Source of the DNA: Dehalococcoidia bacterium
GTDB lineage: Bacteria > Chloroflexota > Dehalococcoidia > E44-bin15
Assembly (NCBI GenBank): GCA_030638665.1
Contig: DAOWEF010000021.1
Span: 1-13,277, forward strand
Direction of reading: 5' to 3'
Length of the DNA: 13,277 nucleotides
The translations under genes were made by a program, and so were the position numbers. The notes below the pieces were generated by a model. The model saw nothing but the letters and a program-made list of their open reading frames with translations. It made no database searches and had not been told where the DNA came from. Positions within the stretch are counted from its first letter, which is position 1. Each line of letters begins with the position of its first letter. Below, one piece after another: positions 1 to 8,434 of this stretch.

Positions 1-982
1 CAGGATTATCTTTGCCGAGTATTGATACTGCCAGTGCGAGCGTGGCACCGCATGCACTACAAAGTGTCTTGCCTGGATGAGGACTTGAAAGTCCTGTTAC
101 TCTTGACTGGCTCAACAATACTTTATCTAGTTCAAATTGCCACTCAAGCTGCTCCTTGAGAGATTCTATATCCTCTCCCTTGATTAGAATTGTGCTGATA
201 TCGAAAGATCGATTATGCCTTTCGGCAAATTCTCTCAGATAATCAACCTGTGAAGGGTCGATTCCCAGGATAGTTGCCCCGACAGTGTCACACTCGAATA
301 TATCCGGGCTGGCTATAATCAAATCCTTGCGGTGGGCCACACCAGCGTAAGTTTCCGGACCCTTTTCCAACATGTATATTCCGTCAATTATGACCAGATC
401 GCTCTCGATAGCTTCGTTCAAAAGACAAATTAGACTATCTAATCGATTGGTAGTATGAAACTTCTGTTTGGAAGCTTTGCTGAGACACCCCTTCAGGTTC
501 TTGAAACCTAGAGAGACTTTAGTTTGAAAGTGGGTTTTTAGGACCGGAATGTTTATTAGAAAGTCTGTCTCTAAGGCTGCTTTGGAAACTTGAGCCTTTA
601 CCCCTCCCAAATCTAGCTTCTGGAAAGGACCCTGGTTGAAATCGATCAGTTTAACCCCGTGTTTTTCAGCCACCCTGTCAATGCCTGTACCTTTAAAACC
701 TCGTTTCGTATATGGCTCAAGTTCATCGAGTATACCGATAATGGCACCCTCGCCGATAGAAATGTCTCTGCAGCCATGTTCGAGTAGTAATTGTATGACT
801 CCATCTATTATCTTTGAGGTGGTGACCATTCCATATGGGGGCATTAATCTGTGCCGGAAGCAGTTATTGGGTTTTATCAGGATCTTATCGTTCCTATTTA
901 GCTTCCTGAATCCATCACATAGTTCAACGGCCTTACGAAGCGAATCCAGGGAATCGTCAAATTTCACCAGCGATACCGTCAT
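1..982 (-). CDS. DUF362 domain protein, 3' end outside window
   Basis: The minus strand is open from an ATG at 980-982 to the left edge, giving about 327 residues with no stop. The translation fits the DUF362 family: an early ILIKPNN segment (about residues 35-41), a GEGAIIG glycine-rich stretch, IPVLKTH followed by FKNLKGC, and VIIDGIYMLEKGP. DUF362 proteins are widespread, often carry Fe-S domains and mostly lack an assigned reaction. Near the visible C-terminus is a CSAC pair (TLCSACGATLA), but no full 4Fe-4S ferredoxin motif before the edge. The start is chosen because its ATG overlaps the stop of the upstream acyltransferase in an ATGA arrangement, which suggests translational coupling. 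Base composition is lower in GC than the genes right of 3500. Family membership is fairly sure; function is unknown. Confidence 0.8.
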   Translation of the reverse strand, partial: MTVSLVKFDDSLDSLRKAVELCDGFRKLNRNDKILIKPNNCFRHRLMPPYGMVTTSKIIDGVIQLLLEHGCRDISIGEGAIIGILDELEPYTKRGFKGTGIDRVAEKHGVKLIDFNQGPFQKLDLGGVKAQVSKAALETDFLINIPVLKTHFQTKVSLGFKNLKGCLSKASKQKFHTTNRLDSLICLLNEAIESDLVIIDGIYMLEKGPETYAGVAHRKDLIIASPDIFECDTVGATILGIDPSQVDYLREFAERHNRSFDISTILIKGEDIESLKEQLEWQFELDKVLLSQSRVTGLSSPHPGKTLCSACGATLALAVSILGKDNP

Positions 983-2389
983 GATCCCTCCGGAGCGGCC
1001 GGGTAGTTTCTAATCTCTTCAGTATATAGATCCAAAAACATCTGAGCCTTTTCTTTCGAGAAAAGGGCAGATCTATAGGTGAGAGAGATATTTAAACGCT
1101 TATTGTAGATGCCGGCGCAGAGGCTCAGTCCCATCGGGGTTACCACAGGTGCTGAGCCGGTAACATTGACAATTTTAGAGCTACCTATACTGGTAACAGC
1201 AGGTTCTTCGGAGCCTACTTTCGGCCAGACCACGCCCATATTAGTAATGAGAATAGTATCGACGTAGGTTCGGGTAATCATCAAGAACCTACACATTCCT
1301 CTCATAACTGCTAGAGGAAAGAGAGAGCAAAAGTAGAAGAAATAAACTAGGGAGAAGGCCATCCTATTCTTGGCTGCATATATGTTGTCTGTCCTTTCCT
1401 TTCTCAATAGCTTTGCGGGATCAGCCCTATCTTGGGGAGTGGTTACAGGGGAAATCCAGGATGCCTGATTGGAAACAACGTACCGGAACCCCTTGGGACT
1501 TATATTTACCGGTGCCATTATGCGTATCTTTTTACTGACTTTTCCGTGCATGCTATTCCATTTTTCAACGACTGTGTAACACGCAGCCAGAAAAACATCG
1601 TTCAGTTCGACACCGGCTGATCTTGCTTTAGACTCACTCTGTTCTCGTTCCCTTGGGCCCATTAGCTTATTATAAAGGTGAAGTTCTTTTAAGTGCCCTG
1701 ACTTATCATGGAAAACCCTTGTTGGGGCCGGAAGGGCGGCTATAACAAACCGATGGAAAAGACTAGAGATCATTTTCATAATAGTAGTGCTCTACCCTTG
1801 ACCTTTGGCTGCGGGCAAATTCCAGCAATTCATCCCCTTTACGGGATATGCGGACATCTTCTGACGGTCTAGAAACCTCAGAAACCTCGTTGTTGTAAAT
1901 TTCAATGACCTTCCTTATAAAAAGAACGCCGCGGAGTCCGTCTGTTGCAGAGTGATGAAAAGTGAAAACCAGCGAAGATTCAGCCTCGTTTTTCTTTATT
2001 AGAAGGGCTCTAAATGGAAATCGCTTTCTTATATCCATAGGCTGGTTCATCCATTCAGATAGATATCTCTCATAGTCTGCATCTTGGAGTTCGGCTAGGT
2101 CTTGGACAGTCAGGACTCCTTCTCCGAAATCATCTTGTATTTCGCGGTAAAGCCTGAAACCTTTGCTTCATAGAATCGTTCTCATAATGGGGTGAGCTTC
2201 TTGCGCGGACGTAATTGCTTGATTCAATCTAACAGGATCTATCTCCCCTTCGAGGTTTAGAATTGCGTGAATAAGCGCGAGCTCATTTATATCATCAAGA
2301 GCCAGTTCGCATTTATCGACGCAATTCAGTGGTATTGATCTGCCGGGCTTTTTCATTTCACTTCGCATGGTAGGTTTGAACAGGATCAA
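979..2389 (-). pseudogene. Condensation-type (HHxxxDG) acyltransferase, broken by a nonsense codon and a frameshift
   Basis: Three consecutive minus-strand pieces read as one protein of about 470 residues. The first (TTG at 2389, or ATG at 2368 or 2356) ends at an in-frame TGA at 2168-2170 after HPIMRTIL. The same frame then stays open through SKGFRLYREIQDDFGEG to the catalytic HHSATDG motif (about 1937-1957) and ends at a TAG near 1764. The third piece, in another frame from about 1779, supplies the C-terminal half (ALPAPTRVF, VELNDVFLAACY, IRIMAPVNIS) and ends at 979. HHxxxDG marks the condensation / WS-DGAT / PapA / alcohol acetyltransferase superfamily, which transfers acyl groups from thioesters to hydroxyl or amine acceptors. 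The acceptor cannot be told. Two independent lesions favour a pseudogene. Sequencing error could explain the frameshift but is less likely to explain both. Confidence 0.75.
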
Positions 2390-2484
2390 ACGGGGTGATT
2401 CGTCATAGTCATGTCATGAATTAAACTCGAGGCTGGCTGTATTCAAGCGACTAAGTCATACCTGTTACCATGAAGTTTGTTTGG

Positions 2485-2907
2485 TTATTTATCCAATGAT
2501 TCGATCCTTTTTTTTGCCGCTTGCGCAATCTCATCTGATACTGCTTGACCGCCTCGGCGTGCTAGCCATGCCAGAAGCCCTGAGACCTCGCCGCCTATGG
2601 TAACCTTCGTCTTGCCATTTACAGGTTCCAAGAAATAGAAGCGTGTCAAGTTGGTGCCCAGTGCTCTTCCTTGCATCACCACGGAACATTCCGGGACAAA
2701 TTCGGTGATTGTCATCAGCAAGTTGACTGTGAGCCTGCTTACCTTAGCCGTCACAGAAAGTTGTGAGCCTACTGTCAAAGGTCCCTCAGAGACCCTCTCA
2801 ATCTTCTTAATGGACCCCATCCATTGGGGCCACTCTTCAAGCCTGTCAACTAGCGCCCATACCTTCTTTACAGGGGCATTGATCTCAACACTGCTGCTAA
2901 ACCTCAT
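2485..2907 (-). CDS. SRPBCC-fold (START/polyketide-cyclase-like) protein
   Basis: This 140-residue protein opens with SSSVEINAPVKKVWALVDRLEEWPQWMGSI, the typical first strand and helix of SRPBCC / polyketide cyclase-dehydrase proteins (APxxxVW followed by a W-P-W segment), and ends in the expected long C-terminal helix (AVSDEIAQAAKKRIESL). The fold makes a hydrophobic pocket for lipids, polyketides or other small ligands. Many members bind rather than catalyse, and the ligand cannot be read from sequence. The ATG at 2907 follows a purine-rich GAAGGGGG stretch nine bases upstream, and a near-consensus promoter lies about 30-60 bases further up, so the start is well supported. It precedes the broken acyltransferase and DUF362 genes with a 95-base gap. 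A lipid- or acyl-related role for the trio is conceivable but is inference only. Confidence 0.8.
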   Translation of the reverse strand: MRFSSSVEINAPVKKVWALVDRLEEWPQWMGSIKKIERVSEGPLTVGSQLSVTAKVSRLTVNLLMTITEFVPECSVVMQGRALGTNLTRFYFLEPVNGKTKVTIGGEVSGLLAWLARRGGQAVSDEIAQAAKKRIESLDK

Positions 2908-2942
2908 ACCTTTTTACCCCCTTCATAACCTCAAGCTTGGTG

Positions 2943-2971
2943 ATGATACGCTCATGGCGTCTAGCTGTCAA
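2943..2971 (-). promoter_or_regulatory. Near-consensus sigma70-type promoter for the SRPBCC gene
   Basis: On the minus strand there is a perfect -35 TTGACA (2966-2971), a 17-base spacer, and a -10 TATCAT (2943-2948; five of six match TATAAT). Transcription would begin near 2936, leaving a leader of about 30 bases containing the GAAGGGGG ribosome-binding stretch and the ATG at 2907. The promoter could also serve the acyltransferase remnant and the DUF362 gene, since I found no better promoter in the 95 bases before the former. Confidence 0.65.
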
Positions 2972-3101
2972 GATCGTGTACTCGTCCAGTACATTCAGGA
3001 CTGCAACACAACAGACAAAATGTAGCTAGGTGGGCGGAGTCTATGGCTCTGCCTCAACGTTCATGAAGTAGTTGAAAGATTGGAACGGGAGGCGTGTCAT
3101 A

Positions 3102-3160
3102 TTCTAACCCGGACTAGCTTGCCGCTGCCCTTAGCGGTCGGTTGCAGTGAGTTGTTAGAC
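3102..3160 (-). other. Candidate integron attC site (59-base element)
   Basis: Read on the minus strand, the element starts with the R''-type core GTCTAAC (3160-3154; fits RYYYAAC) and ends with GTTAGAA (3108-3102; six of seven positions of GTTRRRY). These cores are inverted repeats with one mismatch and bound exactly 59 bases, the classical attC length. Inside, after a short spacer, CTGC (in CTGCAACCGAC) can pair with GC-T-AG on the other arm, leaving one extrahelical base. A central hairpin CCGCT / AGCGG encloses the loop AAGGGC. The R''/L'' half resembles, from memory, the aadA1-type attC arm. The orientation is right for a cassette: R'' lies 19 bases after the stop of the minus-strand reading frame at 3180. 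The imperfect last base of R' and the lack of an integrase or second attC in the window are the main cautions. Confidence 0.65.
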
Positions 3161-3179
3161 GGGCGTTGCTCTGAATATT

Positions 3180-3514
3180 TCACACTAGGCCGAGGAGAGT
3201 GGGTACAACTGAAATGACTGCGCCTGTTACTCCTCCCACAAGCAGACTAGGAATTTTGGGTCGCCAACTCCTAGCCGCGATAAGTTCTTTGTTCAACTGT
3301 TCGATAGTACCGGATAACCGTTGAACTTCTGAAAGAAAATCGTCCAGAGTTGTTGCGCGTTCTTGAATATTATTGAACAGGATGGTGGATGTTAACGGGA
3401 TTGTCCTGTCGCCAATTCTCTGAAACGCACCTCCATCTACTAGATATGGTACTTTATGTTTCCCTCGCTGCGGGGGCTTAAAGCGCGCCTTGACAATAGC
3501 GAATCTCGTTATAG
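3180..3514 (-). pseudogene. 5'-truncated gene remnant, AlbA_2 (Schlafen-type)-like C-terminal part plus TM segment
   Basis: A minus-strand frame runs from the end of the hydrolase gene to a TGA at 3180-3182, about 110 codons, with no ATG, GTG or TTG near its beginning. The translation looks like real protein: RFAIVKARFKPPQRGKHKVP, then GGAFQRIGDRTIPLTS, then a helical stretch with heptad character (TLDDFLSEVQRLSGTIEQLNKEL), then a hydrophobic C-terminal segment (SLLVGGVTGAVISVVPTLLGLV) that could be a membrane anchor. The 'Y-(V/Q)-R-x-G-(S/D)-x-T' type segment resembles the second half of AlbA_2 domains, with the N-terminal half missing. The break falls within a few dozen bases of the hydrolase stop. 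If intact it would need a rare ATT start. It sits just upstream of the attC-like site, like a cassette gene. The family call is tentative. Confidence 0.5.
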
Positions 3515-4162
3515 AGCGTGCTTGAGCACCACGATCTCTGTGGACGCGGGGAGCTGACCGCGTTTAAACTCCACCTCGGAGGCGTCCATCCGCTTCACAT
3601 TGGCCTTGCTGGCTAGGAAAGGCTCGACATCGCTTACGGGGAAAGTGGGGCACCTGTCCGTTTGATAGTGCATGGGGATAACCACGCGGGGCTGAACCTG
3701 GTCGACTACTCGATGGGCTCCGGCAGGGTCAAGGGTAAAGTTTCCGGCCATTGGGGTGAGCAGGACATCGACCTCGCCGATGTCAGCTAGCTGCTGGTCG
3801 CTGAGCGTATGACCCAGGTCTCCAAGATGGCAGAGCCTAACCCCGTTCACGGTGAAACAGAATATGTTATTTGGGCCTCGCTGGCTGCCGCCGCTATCAT
3901 CGTGATAGCTTGCTATCCCCGTGAACTCGATGCCTTTTACTTGATGTCCACCGGCACCACGGATCACCTGAGGGTTGCCAGGAACACCCTTTACATAGTT
4001 GTGGTCGGGGTGCTCGTGGCTGACCACCACGATATCGGCCGCCTCCTCTATTTTGCCATAATTAACCCCAAAGGTCCCGGGCTCGAAAGGGTCAGTAATG
4101 ATCTTGATTCCTTCATCCGAGGTGATTATAAAAGCAGAGTGACCAAGCCATTTTACCTTCAT
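3509..4162 (-). CDS. UlaG-like metallo-beta-lactamase-fold metal-dependent hydrolase
   Basis: This 217-residue protein has the MBL-fold metal signature HEHPDH (HxHxDH, residues 49-54), an early WLGHSAF segment, TDPF near residue 23-26, GDLGH around the second metal-ligand region, LTPMAGNFT and a late PMHYQTD. These match the UlaG / UPF0173-type branch of zinc or manganese hydrolases, cytoplasmic enzymes with mostly unknown substrates. The frame extends upstream to 4303, but the start is set at ATG 4162 because AAGGAGG lies eight bases before it, MKVKWLGHSA is the usual family N-terminus, and the upstream extension is Lys/Ser-rich and unconserved-looking. It follows pepA after 133 bases, so it may be read from the same message. 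The C-terminus (TEIVVLKHAL) looks complete, although the sequence directly beyond it is a rearranged junction. Confidence 0.87.
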   Translation of the reverse strand: MKVKWLGHSAFIITSDEGIKIITDPFEPGTFGVNYGKIEEAADIVVVSHEHPDHNYVKGVPGNPQVIRGAGGHQVKGIEFTGIASYHDDSGGSQRGPNNIFCFTVNGVRLCHLGDLGHTLSDQQLADIGEVDVLLTPMAGNFTLDPAGAHRVVDQVQPRVVIPMHYQTDRCPTFPVSDVEPFLASKANVKRMDASEVEFKRGQLPASTEIVVLKHAL

Positions 4163-4295
4163 TTTAGAAGCCTCCTTCTTTGATTTTTTTAAACTTTCTG
4201 AAGCGCTTTTTAGAACCGGGGCTTTCCTAGGAAAATCCCCCTTTTGTGAAACCTTTCCAAATAGTTCGAAATTTTTCGGCTGTCTCATCCCTTCC

Positions 4296-5792
4296 CTATT
4301 CATGGGTCAGGATGAGATTGGCCAGGGTTCTCACCGCAACACCGGTTGCCCCTTTCACCAGGTAGGTTCGTTCTTTCTCGGCGTGGGAGGGGCCGGCAAT
4401 ATCCAGATGAACCCAGGGTGTCTCCGCAACAAATTCGGCGAGGAACTGAGCCCCGGTGATCGCACCTCCCCATCTGCCCGCGGAGTTCTTGATGTCGGCG
4501 ATATCGCTCTTGTTCTGCTCCTTATACTCCTCATACATAGGCATCTGCCAGATGTACTCTCCAGCCTCCTCACCCGCCTTAATCACCCTATCCACTAGCT
4601 CCTGATTATTGCCGAAGGCACCGGTACAGAAGTCGCCCAGCGCGATGTGACAGGCACCGGTCAGCGTAGCAACATCCACCACTGGGGAGAGCCCCAACTT
4701 ACGAGCATAACAGAGGGCATCGGCCAGAATGAGCCGCCCCTCGGCATCTGTGGTCACAACCTCAATGGTCTTGCCATTTGACGCCTGCACGATGTCTCCC
4801 GGCTTGAGGGCTGCGCCGTCGGGGAGGTTCTCCGTCGCGGGCACGAGCGCAGTGACATTAACCTTCGGCCTGAGCTCACCGATGGCACGCATGGCAGCGA
4901 TAACGGCAGCGCCGCCGGCCATGTCCCCCTTCATATCCCCTAGCCCCTCTGAGGGCTTAATGGAGATGCCCCCGGAGTCGAAGGTTATCCCCTTGCCTAC
5001 AAGACCCAAGGGGCTTTTTGCTGGATCGCCACCTTTATAGTTGAGGAGGATGAGCTTTGGCGGCTGCCTGCTTCCCCGGGCCACGCTCAGGAGGGCGCCC
5101 ATCCCCAGCCGCTCCATATCTGCTTGCTCTAGGATGCGGCACTCAAACCCCCACTCGTCGGCGACTCTTTGGGCCACCTCCGCCATGTGAGTGGGGGTCA
5201 TGTAGTTGGCCGGCTCGTTGGCCATATCACGGGCGAGGTTTGTGGCCTCCGCCATTATTCGCCCCCCGGCGCACCCCCGCTCCAGCGCAGCGAGCTTTGC
5301 CTCATCGCGTTCCACGATGAGCAGCTGCTCAATCTCCCCCTCCTCCGCTTCCTTGGTTTGGTGCTTGCGGAAGGTATAAAGACCCAACATAGCGCCCTCT
5401 GTCACCGCCTGGGCCGATTTCTCAGCATCTATGCCACCCACGCCGGCGCCGTGGGCAATGGTTGCCACCTGCGTCGCGCCAACCCTCCTTAGGAAGCGGC
5501 AGGCCTCGGCAGCAACCCCGCGAATCACGGAGAGAGTTAGCTCCTCCTCCTTCCCCAAGCCAGCAACGACCACCCTCTCAGGCGCGATCTTACCCATGCT
5601 ATGAATCAGGGTGATTTCGTTGCGCTTCCCCTTAATCTCCCCCTCAGCGATGAGCTGGGTAATCAGCCCGCCCAGGGCTTTGTCCACCGCCGCCGTGGCC
5701 CCGCCGGGGTTTTTCACCCCTTCAAAGAGATTCACTATGATGGCACATAGGGGGAGCCCTGTGATGTCTCCGGATACAACCTTAACCTCCAT
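4296..5792 (-). CDS. pepA: Leucyl aminopeptidase, M17 family
   Basis: This cytosolic two-metal exopeptidase removes N-terminal residues from peptides. It is 498 residues long, normal for the family. The N-terminal macro-like domain covers about residues 1-170 and the catalytic domain follows. All expected catalytic and metal residues can be seen by position in the motifs: K267 in VGKGITFDSGG, D272, K279, D290 in GDMAGGA, and D349, E351 and R353 in TTDAEGRL. ATG 5792 follows GAGGAGGG eleven bases upstream. The gene lies 113 bases after the kinase gene, in a gap that carries two small inverted repeats, and 133 bases before the hydrolase. PepA of some bacteria also binds DNA; nothing here addresses that. 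Identification is secure. Confidence 0.96.
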   Translation of the reverse strand: MEVKVVSGDITGLPLCAIIVNLFEGVKNPGGATAAVDKALGGLITQLIAEGEIKGKRNEITLIHSMGKIAPERVVVAGLGKEEELTLSVIRGVAAEACRFLRRVGATQVATIAHGAGVGGIDAEKSAQAVTEGAMLGLYTFRKHQTKEAEEGEIEQLLIVERDEAKLAALERGCAGGRIMAEATNLARDMANEPANYMTPTHMAEVAQRVADEWGFECRILEQADMERLGMGALLSVARGSRQPPKLILLNYKGGDPAKSPLGLVGKGITFDSGGISIKPSEGLGDMKGDMAGGAAVIAAMRAIGELRPKVNVTALVPATENLPDGAALKPGDIVQASNGKTIEVVTTDAEGRLILADALCYARKLGLSPVVDVATLTGACHIALGDFCTGAFGNNQELVDRVIKAGEEAGEYIWQMPMYEEYKEQNKSDIADIKNSAGRWGGAITGAQFLAEFVAETPWVHLDIAGPSHAEKERTYLVKGATGVAVRTLANLILTHE

Positions 5793-5830
5793 CTCTTTTT
5801 TCGCCCTCCTCGTTGGTTTCGCCTGTTTGA

Positions 5831-5865
5831 ACCTGACTGCAGGTAAGATATCAGTCCAATCTTAC
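5831..5865. repeat. Two adjacent small inverted repeats in the kinase-pepA gap
   Basis: The + strand reads ACCTG-ACTG-CAGGT (5831-5844), a perfect 5-bp stem with a 4-base loop. It overlaps the start of GTAAGAT-N9-ATCTTAC (5843-5865), a perfect 7-bp inverted repeat. Neither is followed by a T-run in the direction of transcription, so they do not look like an intrinsic terminator. They lie about 40-75 bases upstream of the pepA start and could be an operator or an mRNA-processing hairpin. Function is unknown. Confidence 0.35.
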
Positions 5866-5905
5866 TGGAGCAGCTCTCGTCTGAATGTCCCGAAACGCCC
5901 AAAAT

Positions 5906-6553
5906 TCAACGATTTACCTCACGCACAATCTTGTCGATTACCGGGGTGATGTCCCTAGAGGTATCGACAGCGAAGTGGTTTCGTCGAATGCGCTGCGCCG
6001 CAGCGCTCATCCGCCGATAAACCCTCCAGTCAGCCTCCGATTTGTCCTCCGGATCGAGGCGAGAGAGGCGATCCTGGAGTCGCTGGCGCACCAATTCTGG
6101 AGGCGCCTCAACACGCACTATAATCAGCCTCGCTCCCACGCTGTCGGCAATGTGATAGAGGTGCTCCCGGTGGTATTCGATCAAGTTTGTGGCGTCGAAG
6201 ATAAGCGGGATCCCTCTTCGCAGCAGGTCTTCGATGAGCATGTGGCAAGCCCGAAACACGCGGTCGCTTTCGCCACGGCTATAATTTGGCGTCGGGAAAA
6301 GCAATCCCCTCAGGGCATCGCTCTCCAGGATGGGAAAAGGTGAGGCCGGGGGGCGTGTGGAGATAGAAGGTGATGCCGAGGGAAGGGGGGAGAGCGAAAA
6401 AAGACGCTCGGCAAGCCGGCGGCAGAAGTAGGACTTCCCGCTGCCAGGCAGGCCACTTACCACAATGAAGGCCGGGGTGATGGTGGGTTCGGGCAATTCA
6501 CCCAGGCTTTCCCTCAGCTGTTGCACATCTTTCCTGGTTTGGGTATCTTCCAT
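5906..6553 (-). CDS. P-loop AAA_33-type kinase/ATPase
   Basis: The protein has a Walker A motif GLPGSGKS (residues 34-41 from the ATG at 6553), SDALRG after it, a FDATNL segment where small-molecule and nucleic-acid kinases keep a second active-site strand, VRVEAPPELVRQRL, and basic residues in the lid region (DRLSRLDPEDKSEADWRVYRRM). This is the AAA_33 / zeta-toxin / polynucleotide-kinase-like fold, which phosphorylates small molecules, RNA or nucleotide sugars; the substrate is unknown. A Ser/Pro-rich stretch of about 22 residues separates the P-loop helix from SDALRG and looks like a low-complexity insertion. The frame can also begin at a GTG at 6601. ATG 6553 is preferred because the first 16 residues are Lys/Gly-rich with no family look, but neither start has a clear ribosome-binding site. 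Confidence 0.75.
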   Translation of the reverse strand: MEDTQTRKDVQQLRESLGELPEPTITPAFIVVSGLPGSGKSYFCRRLAERLFSLSPLPSASPSISTRPPASPFPILESDALRGLLFPTPNYSRGESDRVFRACHMLIEDLLRRGIPLIFDATNLIEYHREHLYHIADSVGARLIIVRVEAPPELVRQRLQDRLSRLDPEDKSEADWRVYRRMSAAAQRIRRNHFAVDTSRDITPVIDKIVREVNR

Positions 6554-6705: not shown

Positions 6706-7569
6706 TCAGCCTTCGGTATAAAAGGTAATGGCCAGCACTCCTGGGCCGGCATGAACCCCCATGCCAGGGGTGAACCCGGTGAGATAAAGCTCCACACAGT
6801 TAAATCGGGAGGCAATCTCAGCCTTGAGTTTCTCCCCATTCTCCAGCTCATCAGCATGGTGCACGATGACATGCACCGGGGAGTCCCCAACCCGTTCCGA
6901 CATTATCTCCAGGAGGCGACTTACCGCCTTTGTTCTGGTCCGGGGACGCGCCACCGGCATTGTTTCTCCTGTGGAAGTAGCATGCTCCACGATAGGCTTT
7001 ATATTTAAAAGTGTCCCGGCCCAAGCCTTCGCCCTGCCGGTGCGACCGGTTCTCGCCAGGTAGAAGAGGGTATCCAACATCGCAATGAAATTTACCCTGG
7101 GCATCATACCGCGAACCACCTCAGTCACCTGAGCCAGGTCTGCCCCCTGGCTGGCAGCACGAGCCGCCTCCAGGACGATAAGCCCCAAGGCGCCGCCCAC
7201 TGCCCGGCTGTCGATGACCTCGATAGTAGTGTTGGTGAGCACCTCTTTGGCCACATCTTTTGCTACCAGCGCAGTATCGTAGATCTTGCTTTGTAGCGAG
7301 GTGAGGGTGATGCAGAGTATGCTCTCCGACTTCTGGCTCAACTGGCGATAGGCACCGAGGAAATCCCCCGCCGATGGAGTGGAGGTGGTCGGCAGATTCT
7401 CTCTCCGCCGCATAATCCTGTAGACTTCGTCGGGACTCATGTCAATCCCGTCGCGATAGCTCTTGCCTTCATAAATTATCATTAGTGGCACTACACAAAT
7501 ATCATACTTCGACACCAATTCCTCAGGTAGGCAAGCTGTGCTGTCAGTAACAATGCCAACTTTTTTCAT
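6706..7569 (-). CDS. DegV family fatty-acid-binding protein (downstream copy)
   Basis: The protein begins MKKVGIVTDSTACLPEELVSKY, carries the family's TTSTPSAGDFLGAY segment, and ends in GMGVHAGPGVLAITFY; the TDST, TSxPS and HxGPG segments are all canonical. DegV proteins bind a long-chain fatty acid. In Firmicutes the FakB members present it to the kinase FakA. No FakA is visible here, so the partner is unknown. Length is 287 residues, normal for the family. The frame is open to an ATG at 7590 that overlaps the previous gene, but the start is set at 7569 because AGGAGG, directly after the previous gene's TAA, is spaced five bases from it. It is paired with a more divergent paralogue directly upstream and is clearly co-translated with it. 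Confidence 0.9.
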   Translation of the reverse strand: MKKVGIVTDSTACLPEELVSKYDICVVPLMIIYEGKSYRDGIDMSPDEVYRIMRRRENLPTTSTPSAGDFLGAYRQLSQKSESILCITLTSLQSKIYDTALVAKDVAKEVLTNTTIEVIDSRAVGGALGLIVLEAARAASQGADLAQVTEVVRGMMPRVNFIAMLDTLFYLARTGRTGRAKAWAGTLLNIKPIVEHATSTGETMPVARPRTRTKAVSRLLEIMSERVGDSPVHVIVHHADELENGEKLKAEIASRFNCVELYLTGFTPGMGVHAGPGVLAITFYTEG

Positions 7570-7579
7570 CATAGCCTCC

Positions 7580-8434
7580 TTAGTCAACATAAAAGGCGAG
7601 GCCGAGCAATCCCCGACCTGTAGTGTAGCCCATTATAGGGCTGAACTCACTAATCCAGAGCTCCCCGCAATTGAACTCCGATGCTACCTGCTCCTTGAGC
7701 CTCTGGGCCTCCTCAAGCGCATCGGCATGCACTACTGCCACATGCACCGGGTTTTCCCCAACCTTCTCTCGCATCAGTTGGATGATTCGCTTTACCCCGC
7801 GCTCTTTGGTCCTGGCAATGCCCACGAAATGCGCCGCCCCATCGGATATGCTCAATATCGGCTTGACACTGAGGGCAGACCCCACCTGTGACGCAAGCTT
7901 GGGGATGCGTCCTGACCGGTATACATGGCGGATGGTCTCCATAACGGTTAGGAGATTGACCTTATCCCTCATTTCCTCCGCGGTTTTAATGGCCTCAGCT
8001 AGGCACTTGCCATCCGCTACCGCCCTTGCCGCTGTCAGGACAACAAACCCCTCAGCAGCGGCGCAAGTCCGGGAGTCTAAAATCTCGATGGTGGTCTGTG
8101 AAAGTTCCTCTACACCTTGTTCCTTCGCCACCCGGGCCGCGTCATGAAGCATGCTAAACTTGGCGCTGAGGGTGATGCAAAGAATGCTTTGCGCTCTGGT
8201 GCTTAGCTCACGGTAGGCCTCAAGATAATCTGCGGGGGAGGGTGCCGATGTAGTGAAACAATCGGGGTCCCTTTCTAAAAGCCGGTAGGCCTCTGAGGGG
8301 CTTATGTCCAGATACTCTTTGTATACCTTGCCATCGAAATGGATGTTTGAGGGAACTATTCGAATCCCGTACTGCTCCACCATCTCTTTGGTGAAGCAGG
8401 CTATGCTATCGGCGACAATGGCAACCTTATCCAT
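7580..8434 (-). CDS. DegV family protein (upstream, divergent copy)
   Basis: This 284-residue paralogue of the next gene begins MDKVAIVADSIACFTKEMVEQY and carries FTTSAPSPADYLEAY. It keeps the Ser of the TDS-type motif (S10), but it has DSI where the other copy has DST, and its end reads IMGYTTGRGLLGLAFY where the other copy has the canonical GVHAGPG. These are ligand-pocket regions in DegV structures, so it may bind a different lipid or bind differently. The ATG at 8434 lies 15 bases after the only GGAGG, an unusually long spacing. A six-codon frame (ATG 8447) lies in between. It is 21 bases after yggT and shares its message. Confidence 0.88.
   Translation of the reverse strand: MDKVAIVADSIACFTKEMVEQYGIRIVPSNIHFDGKVYKEYLDISPSEAYRLLERDPDCFTTSAPSPADYLEAYRELSTRAQSILCITLSAKFSMLHDAARVAKEQGVEELSQTTIEILDSRTCAAAEGFVVLTAARAVADGKCLAEAIKTAEEMRDKVNLLTVMETIRHVYRSGRIPKLASQVGSALSVKPILSISDGAAHFVGIARTKERGVKRIIQLMREKVGENPVHVAVVHADALEEAQRLKEQVASEFNCGELWISEFSPIMGYTTGRGLLGLAFYVD

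Follow-up and report, generated by a model that had tools for sequence, protein, structure and literature searches.

A probable decayed single attC site lacking a detected integrase in a Dehalococcoidia chromosome

An attC site is active once its bottom strand has folded up as a hairpin; the integrase IntI then cuts and joins it opposite the G/TT in the R' core. The consensus of the attC cores reads RYYYAAC and GTTRRRY. The Dehalococcoidia, being mostly uncultured, are not the usual ground on which integrons are studied. In the literature, a single attC lacking an integron-integrase is called a SALIN, as the accessible text of its source has it (PMC12690207), and the origins proposed for integrase-less attCs in the accessible part of another are off-target insertion, loss of intI and rearrangement (PMC8618304). 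IntegronFinder 2.0 raised its threshold for a CALIN to two attCs as a guard against false positives, with the accessible text granting that single sites can be true (PMC9024848). Going by the available portions of the sources, integrons, CALINs and SALINs of Chloroflexota have already been published (PMC9668308, PMC8618304, PMC12690207, PMC9024848); our own search for publications treating CALINs, integrons and attC together with Chloroflexi, most subscription journals lying outside it, returned none, and one for integrons and attC in Dehalococcoid bacteria returned four.

Here we describe a site at positions 3102-3160 of a 13,277-nucleotide stretch of Dehalococcoidia DNA, the whole of which is referred to as the window. 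With a probability of roughly 0.8, we take it to be a decayed single attC lacking an integrase, that is, a SALIN, in a chromosome of this class.

The 59-base site and its two halves

The elements of the site are as follows.

3102 to 3160, minus strand: attC-like site of 59 bases; the cassette orientation is minus and the strand that IntI would fold is plus
3160 to 3154, minus strand: R'' core GTCTAAC, which fits RYYYAAC
3108 to 3102, minus strand: R' core GTTAGAA, which fits GTTRRRY except at the last base
3137 to 3146, minus strand: L'' segment TGCAACCGAC, intact
3122 to 3137, minus strand: hairpin stem and loop, with CCGCT (3137-3133) complementary to AGCGG (3126-3122), from the sequence and the predicted fold
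3109 to 3125, minus strand: L' side, the expected position of the second arm, its attC likeness lost

An earlier reading, made from the letters of the sequence, had proposed an integron attC at this place. Its description of the layout is borne out on the minus strand: the inverted cores enclose 45 bases and bound exactly 59, the internal CCGCT and AGCGG are complementary, and 19 bases separate R'' from a minus-strand TGA stop (3182-3180).

Taken by itself, either the core pair or the fold is within chance expectation. Under the core-pair rule the window holds four pairs, where 40 dinucleotide shuffles average 1.98; at a spacing of 55-65 bp it holds one, where the shuffles average 0.175 and 7 of the 40 contain one or more. 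The R' core taken singly may have arisen by chance. The fold of the 59 bases gives a z of -1.2 to -1.43 on the plus strand, where 22 of 200 shuffles are equally stable, and of -0.13 on the minus strand (84 of 200), and the window has no match in Rfam at gathering scores. The excess over chance lies in the pattern specific to attC, as captured by a covariance model with its decoy control and by the R''-L'' half.

The covariance model was built here and is distinct from the attC model of IntegronFinder. Its seeds were sought in six stretches of plasmid DNA bearing class 1 integrons and in the surroundings of Chloroflexota integrase genes. Of the 25 attC seeds, six come from two plasmid records and 19 from Chloroflexota, the window being excluded; most were picked by a script that demanded core pairing and stability of the inner fold. 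On 45 sources amounting to 586 kb, the model matches the window at exactly 3102-3160 on the minus strand with 24.2 bits and an E-value of 7.1e-4, these E-values being rough on account of a shortened calibration. In the 688-kb genome bin that holds the window, the same site ranks first (24.2 bits, E 8.4e-4), followed at 13.6 bits (E 1.1) by a stretch without obvious attC cores. The score is modest: among the 52 reference matches with an E of at most 0.001, only two lie below it. A decoy model, made of the same sites written backwards, returned a single match on the same 586 kb, at 15.7 bits (E 1.5). When the best 37 first-look candidates per genome were scored with stricter filters under both models, the real model matched 24 of 148 genomes of the class at E 0.01 or better and the decoy none, the limit of this control being that the decoy has no genome with a known non-chance match. 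In four of the 24 (G383, G455, G479 and G492), the only matches fall between E 0.002 and 0.01, and those inspected by eye looked poor. The attC-like identity of the site is upheld on the minus strand, and the caution of IntegronFinder 2.0 over single sites is met here by a site that passes a decoy-controlled test. A plus-strand orientation was set aside: the covariance model reports the minus one, on which the R''-L'' half is also read.

The two halves of the site differ in a position-weight test based on 51 distinct reference sites that the model had matched with an E of at most 0.001. With 20.5, the 26-base R''-L'' half exceeds 23 of these 51 known sites in a leave-one-out comparison; across the window and 12 other loci, a score as high occurs at only two of 292,592 positions. 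In a version of the test with 43 sites, those two positions are the window site itself and an attC remnant in the family relative G506, a locus that lies in the background because the covariance model had found it. Bases 3133-3159 (27 bases) share 88.9% identity with the attC of the plasmid-borne GIM-1 cassette at a BLAST E of 4; of the eight plasmid records with a match at an E no higher than 10, three are the GIM-1 cassette attC and five are not recognisable as attC. The 17-base L' segment, on the other hand, scores -12.0, below 50 of the 51 known attCs, and 186,898 of 292,610 background positions match or beat it. The conclusion is the same with the 43-site subset, which omits nine of the 52 matches (among them duplicates, partial matches, GIM-1 and the two lowest-scoring) and places L' below 43 of 43 and R''-L'' above 13 of 43.

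It could be argued that the two cores at 3102-3160 happen to lie in a chance inverted repeat or in an ordinary hairpin between genes, such as a terminator, given that core pairs arise unaided, that the fold reaches a z of only -1.43 and that one arm is unlike attC. We regard this as very improbable in view of the covariance model with its reversed decoy and the statistics of the R''-L'' half; a terminator was rejected, no terminator-like site being reported at 3102-3160.

Read plainly, the 59 bases are an attC that has lost one arm. Folding them as a single strand, as had been suggested, gave a divided answer: the R boxes pair (six pairs in the predicted fold), the inner arms do so poorly and only in short stretches. 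On the strand that IntI would use, the predicted fold amounts to -8.3 kcal/mol, against -11.1 to -29.7 kcal/mol (z -1.7 to -6.2) in 19 comparison sites, a set that leans towards stable sites because 12 are seeds, mostly picked by script for stability, the other seven coming from the model. The R boxes are unpaired in the best predicted fold of two of the 19, whereas they pair in the window site. Since the L' and L'' arms are not complementary, we speak of an attC remnant rather than a working attC, and the claim that the architecture recognised by IntI is present has to be cut by half because the inner arms no longer pair properly. Recombination activity is probably low or nil, since the arm due to pair with L'' does not, though the cores remain.

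Chromosomal setting and the neighbouring frame

The surroundings of the site comprise the following features.

3509 to 4303, minus strand: metallo-beta-lactamase-fold hydrolase (PF13483, E 4.7e-55; synteny), the last gene of a conserved block
2485 to 2907, minus strand: SRPBCC or polyketide-cyclase-like gene (PF10604, E 3.6e-13), on the far side of the segment
2972 to 3497, no strand assigned: segment of about 525 bp with a repeat, the attC and a putative ORF remnant, the DNA homology of relatives ending at both edges
2972 to 3093, no strand assigned: dispersed-repeat copy whose end lies 8 bases from R'
3180 to 3497, minus strand: open frame ending 19 bases before R'', which may be a truncated cassette remnant, a very short cassette gene or non-coding
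3297 to 3291, minus strand: GTTGAAC, the sole GTTRRRY match from R'' to the hydrolase stop, either the left edge of a cassette or chance

That the window belongs to a Chloroflexota chromosome, as the sequence-only reading had supposed, is confirmed for the Dehalococcoidia by positions 4184-6207, which are 96.5% identical to a genome of the same genus (G454), and the block of hydrolase, aminopeptidase, DegV, YggT, ProC and SepF genes is conserved in relatives. On the hydrolase side, homology begins at 3497 in G454, at 3509 in G162 and at 3510 in G486, G445 and G466. On the other side, G486 matches window positions 2-2972 at 84%, in the same order and orientation as its hydrolase and on the same contig, about 13 kb off, so the gene order is altered: an interval of about 13 kb in G486 (contig C21, 67570-80565) occupies the place of window 2972-3497. 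We take the ORFs read in this interval to be concerned with sugar-nucleotides and glycans (dTDP-rhamnose type, glmS, phosphohexomutase and oligosaccharyltransferase-like), and presumably glycosyltransferase-like genes adjoin the hydrolase in G454. The segment 2972-3497 appears, from such likenesses, to stand where these two relatives carry sugar-biosynthesis-like genes. Because relatives carry other genes at this point, there is no clean comparison for an insertion, and a search among them yielded no empty site that lacks this insertion and is otherwise the same.

The dispersed repeat at 2972-3093 recurs at 87% over 127 bases in G454 and at 90% over 72 bases elsewhere in the same bin, with further copies in family genomes. 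No transposase was found at the six copies checked, which hold one frame longer than 50 residues (58). A consensus scan places promoter-like elements at the SRPBCC gene, with TTGACA at 2971-2966 and a TATCAT ending at 2943.

Several further observations concern the repeat and the wider window. The ends of the repeat (window 2966-3093) are conserved across several family genomes, as TGTACTCGTCCAGTACATT and GTTCATGAAGTAGTTG...GGGAGG, and GTCAA, the reverse complement of the -35-like TTGAC, stands at the edge in nine of ten repeat left ends printed. At 979-2389, a gene that is weakly condensation-like, its Pfam matches being below the gathering score, is spread over three ORFs, the counterpart in G486 being a single ORF of 458 aa; such a split could fit a decaying region (a pseudogene) or a sequencing error. 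Finally, 6706-8434 holds a tandem pair of genes that we take to be DegV-like, with three such copies at the same place in G162.

The sequence-only reading had also likened the stop near R'' to the end of a gene cassette, a suggestion that gains little from the frame at 3180-3497. It has no ATG or GTG start, its first start being a TTG that gives 38 aa (3296-3180), and it has no Pfam match at the gathering score. In the protein database eight candidates shared words with it and none proved a homologue, the search considering lengths of 0.55-1.75 times the query and being such as to miss a much longer full-length relative; genome contigs and viral contigs held no usable homologue. Among 400 genomes of the phylum, the frame found itself and one weak match (26%, E 0.0096), which looks spurious because it sits among long overlapping ORFs on both strands.

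These features bear on the possibility that 3102-3160 is a still usable attC of a single cassette, inserted in trans by an IntI at an attG-type, non-classical site, in which case the cassette could extend over about 3102-3297 with the 38-aa TTG frame, or towards 3497. Both cores are present and the R boxes pair; GTTGAAC at 3297-3291, with the TTG at 3296, could form the left edge of a cassette of about 190 bp. The insertion of cassettes into genomes at attG is described in the accessible text of two sources (PMC12901181, PMC12444791, citing Loot 2024). However, the attC likeness of L' is lost and the fold is weak, and GTTGAAC is possible as an edge but, as a single 7-mer, not far from chance, with about 0.3 GTTRRRY expected in that stretch on an estimate from equal base frequencies. 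Further, there is no GTT in 3427-3560, by the hydrolase stop where the homology of relatives breaks, no homologue of the frame 3180-3497 was detected, and the stretch offers no convincing candidate for the left boundary of a cassette at 3102-3160. A usable attC is, on balance, improbable, and the decayed single attC is the reading that we retain.

Integrases and attC matches in the family and class

The possibility of a lone attC without an integrase had been raised, and the sequence at hand agrees with it: searches with TIGR02249 found no integrase above the cut-off in the bin (67% complete, window included) or in any of 14 family genomes, and 3102-3160 is the only attC match in window and bin. 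Both absences are provisional, since the bin is incomplete and the missing sequence may hold an integrase or further attCs. Two frames in the bin, of 318 and 321 aa, match TIGR02249 below the cut-off and are, by score, ordinary tyrosine recombinases, because 14 of 14 control genomes match at that threshold; the family relative G162 carries a match of 135.6 bits against a cut-off of 265.

In another family relative, G506, a 38-bp attC remnant was observed (L156:2079-2116, also L101:1501-1538; 25.8 bits), in which R'' and L'' are intact, an R'-like core is present and the central loop is missing. It lies between ORFs that we assume to be oxidoreductase-like and galactokinase-like.

Across the class, attC matches outnumber integrase matches. 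In draws of the same size and rule (148 genomes), with the best 37 first-look candidates per genome considered for attC, the 24 genomes with attC matches stand beside four with TIGR02249 matches at 1e-50, two above the cut-off (G305, G499) and two fragments (G490, G482). As all four are among the 24, 20 attC genomes have no integrase match at 1e-50, an absence that is provisional where genomes are incomplete, as many are. G270 (95% complete) holds eight attC matches on five contigs, in ones and twos, without an integrase match, and G482 holds 20 together with an integrase fragment with an internal stop. An attC without integrase in this lineage is, therefore, less exceptional than the sequence-only reading had it.

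These counts suggest that cassette movement is wider in the class than the number of integrases shows, and the excess of attC over integrase is a more interesting lead than the single site. It might be that integrases now gone, or residing on visiting elements, scattered attCs singly or in pairs through Dehalococcoidia chromosomes, an extension that we hold tentatively and consider rather unlikely. If true, attCs would outnumber integrases across the class and their decay in place would be a record of past cassette traffic.

Proposed history and comparison with known systems

For the decayed single attC at 3102-3160, a cassette or array may have arrived either through IntI acting in trans or within a larger integron-bearing segment. 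Rearrangement would then have reduced the arrived DNA, as suggested by the lack here of the roughly 13 kb of G486, by the repeat 8 bases away and by a frame without a normal start. Once no integrase maintained the site, the L' arm would have lost its match to L''. The half-decayed site may serve as an example of how an attC wears out, one arm first and the cores last.

Compared with attC sites (59-base elements), the locus shares an R'' of RYYYAAC, an R' that is one base off GTTRRRY, the L'' segment, the length of 59 bp and a covariance match, and differs in a diverged L' arm and in a hairpin weaker than those of all 19 comparison sites. With CALINs it shares an attC without an integrase; the label CALIN-type offered earlier does not fit, as its current use needs two or more attCs and one is seen here. 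It resembles SALINs in having a single attC in a bin that yielded no integrase; the difference is that the site is decayed rather than canonical and that the lack of integrase is provisional in an incomplete bin. As to Chloroflexota integrons, integrases above the TIGR02249 cut-off occur in 42 of 400 genomes of the phylum, several of them with attCs of the same pattern, as against two of 148 in the class and none of 14 in the family. The site is very probably an integrase-less integron relic, a known kind of element, here in a little-studied lineage.
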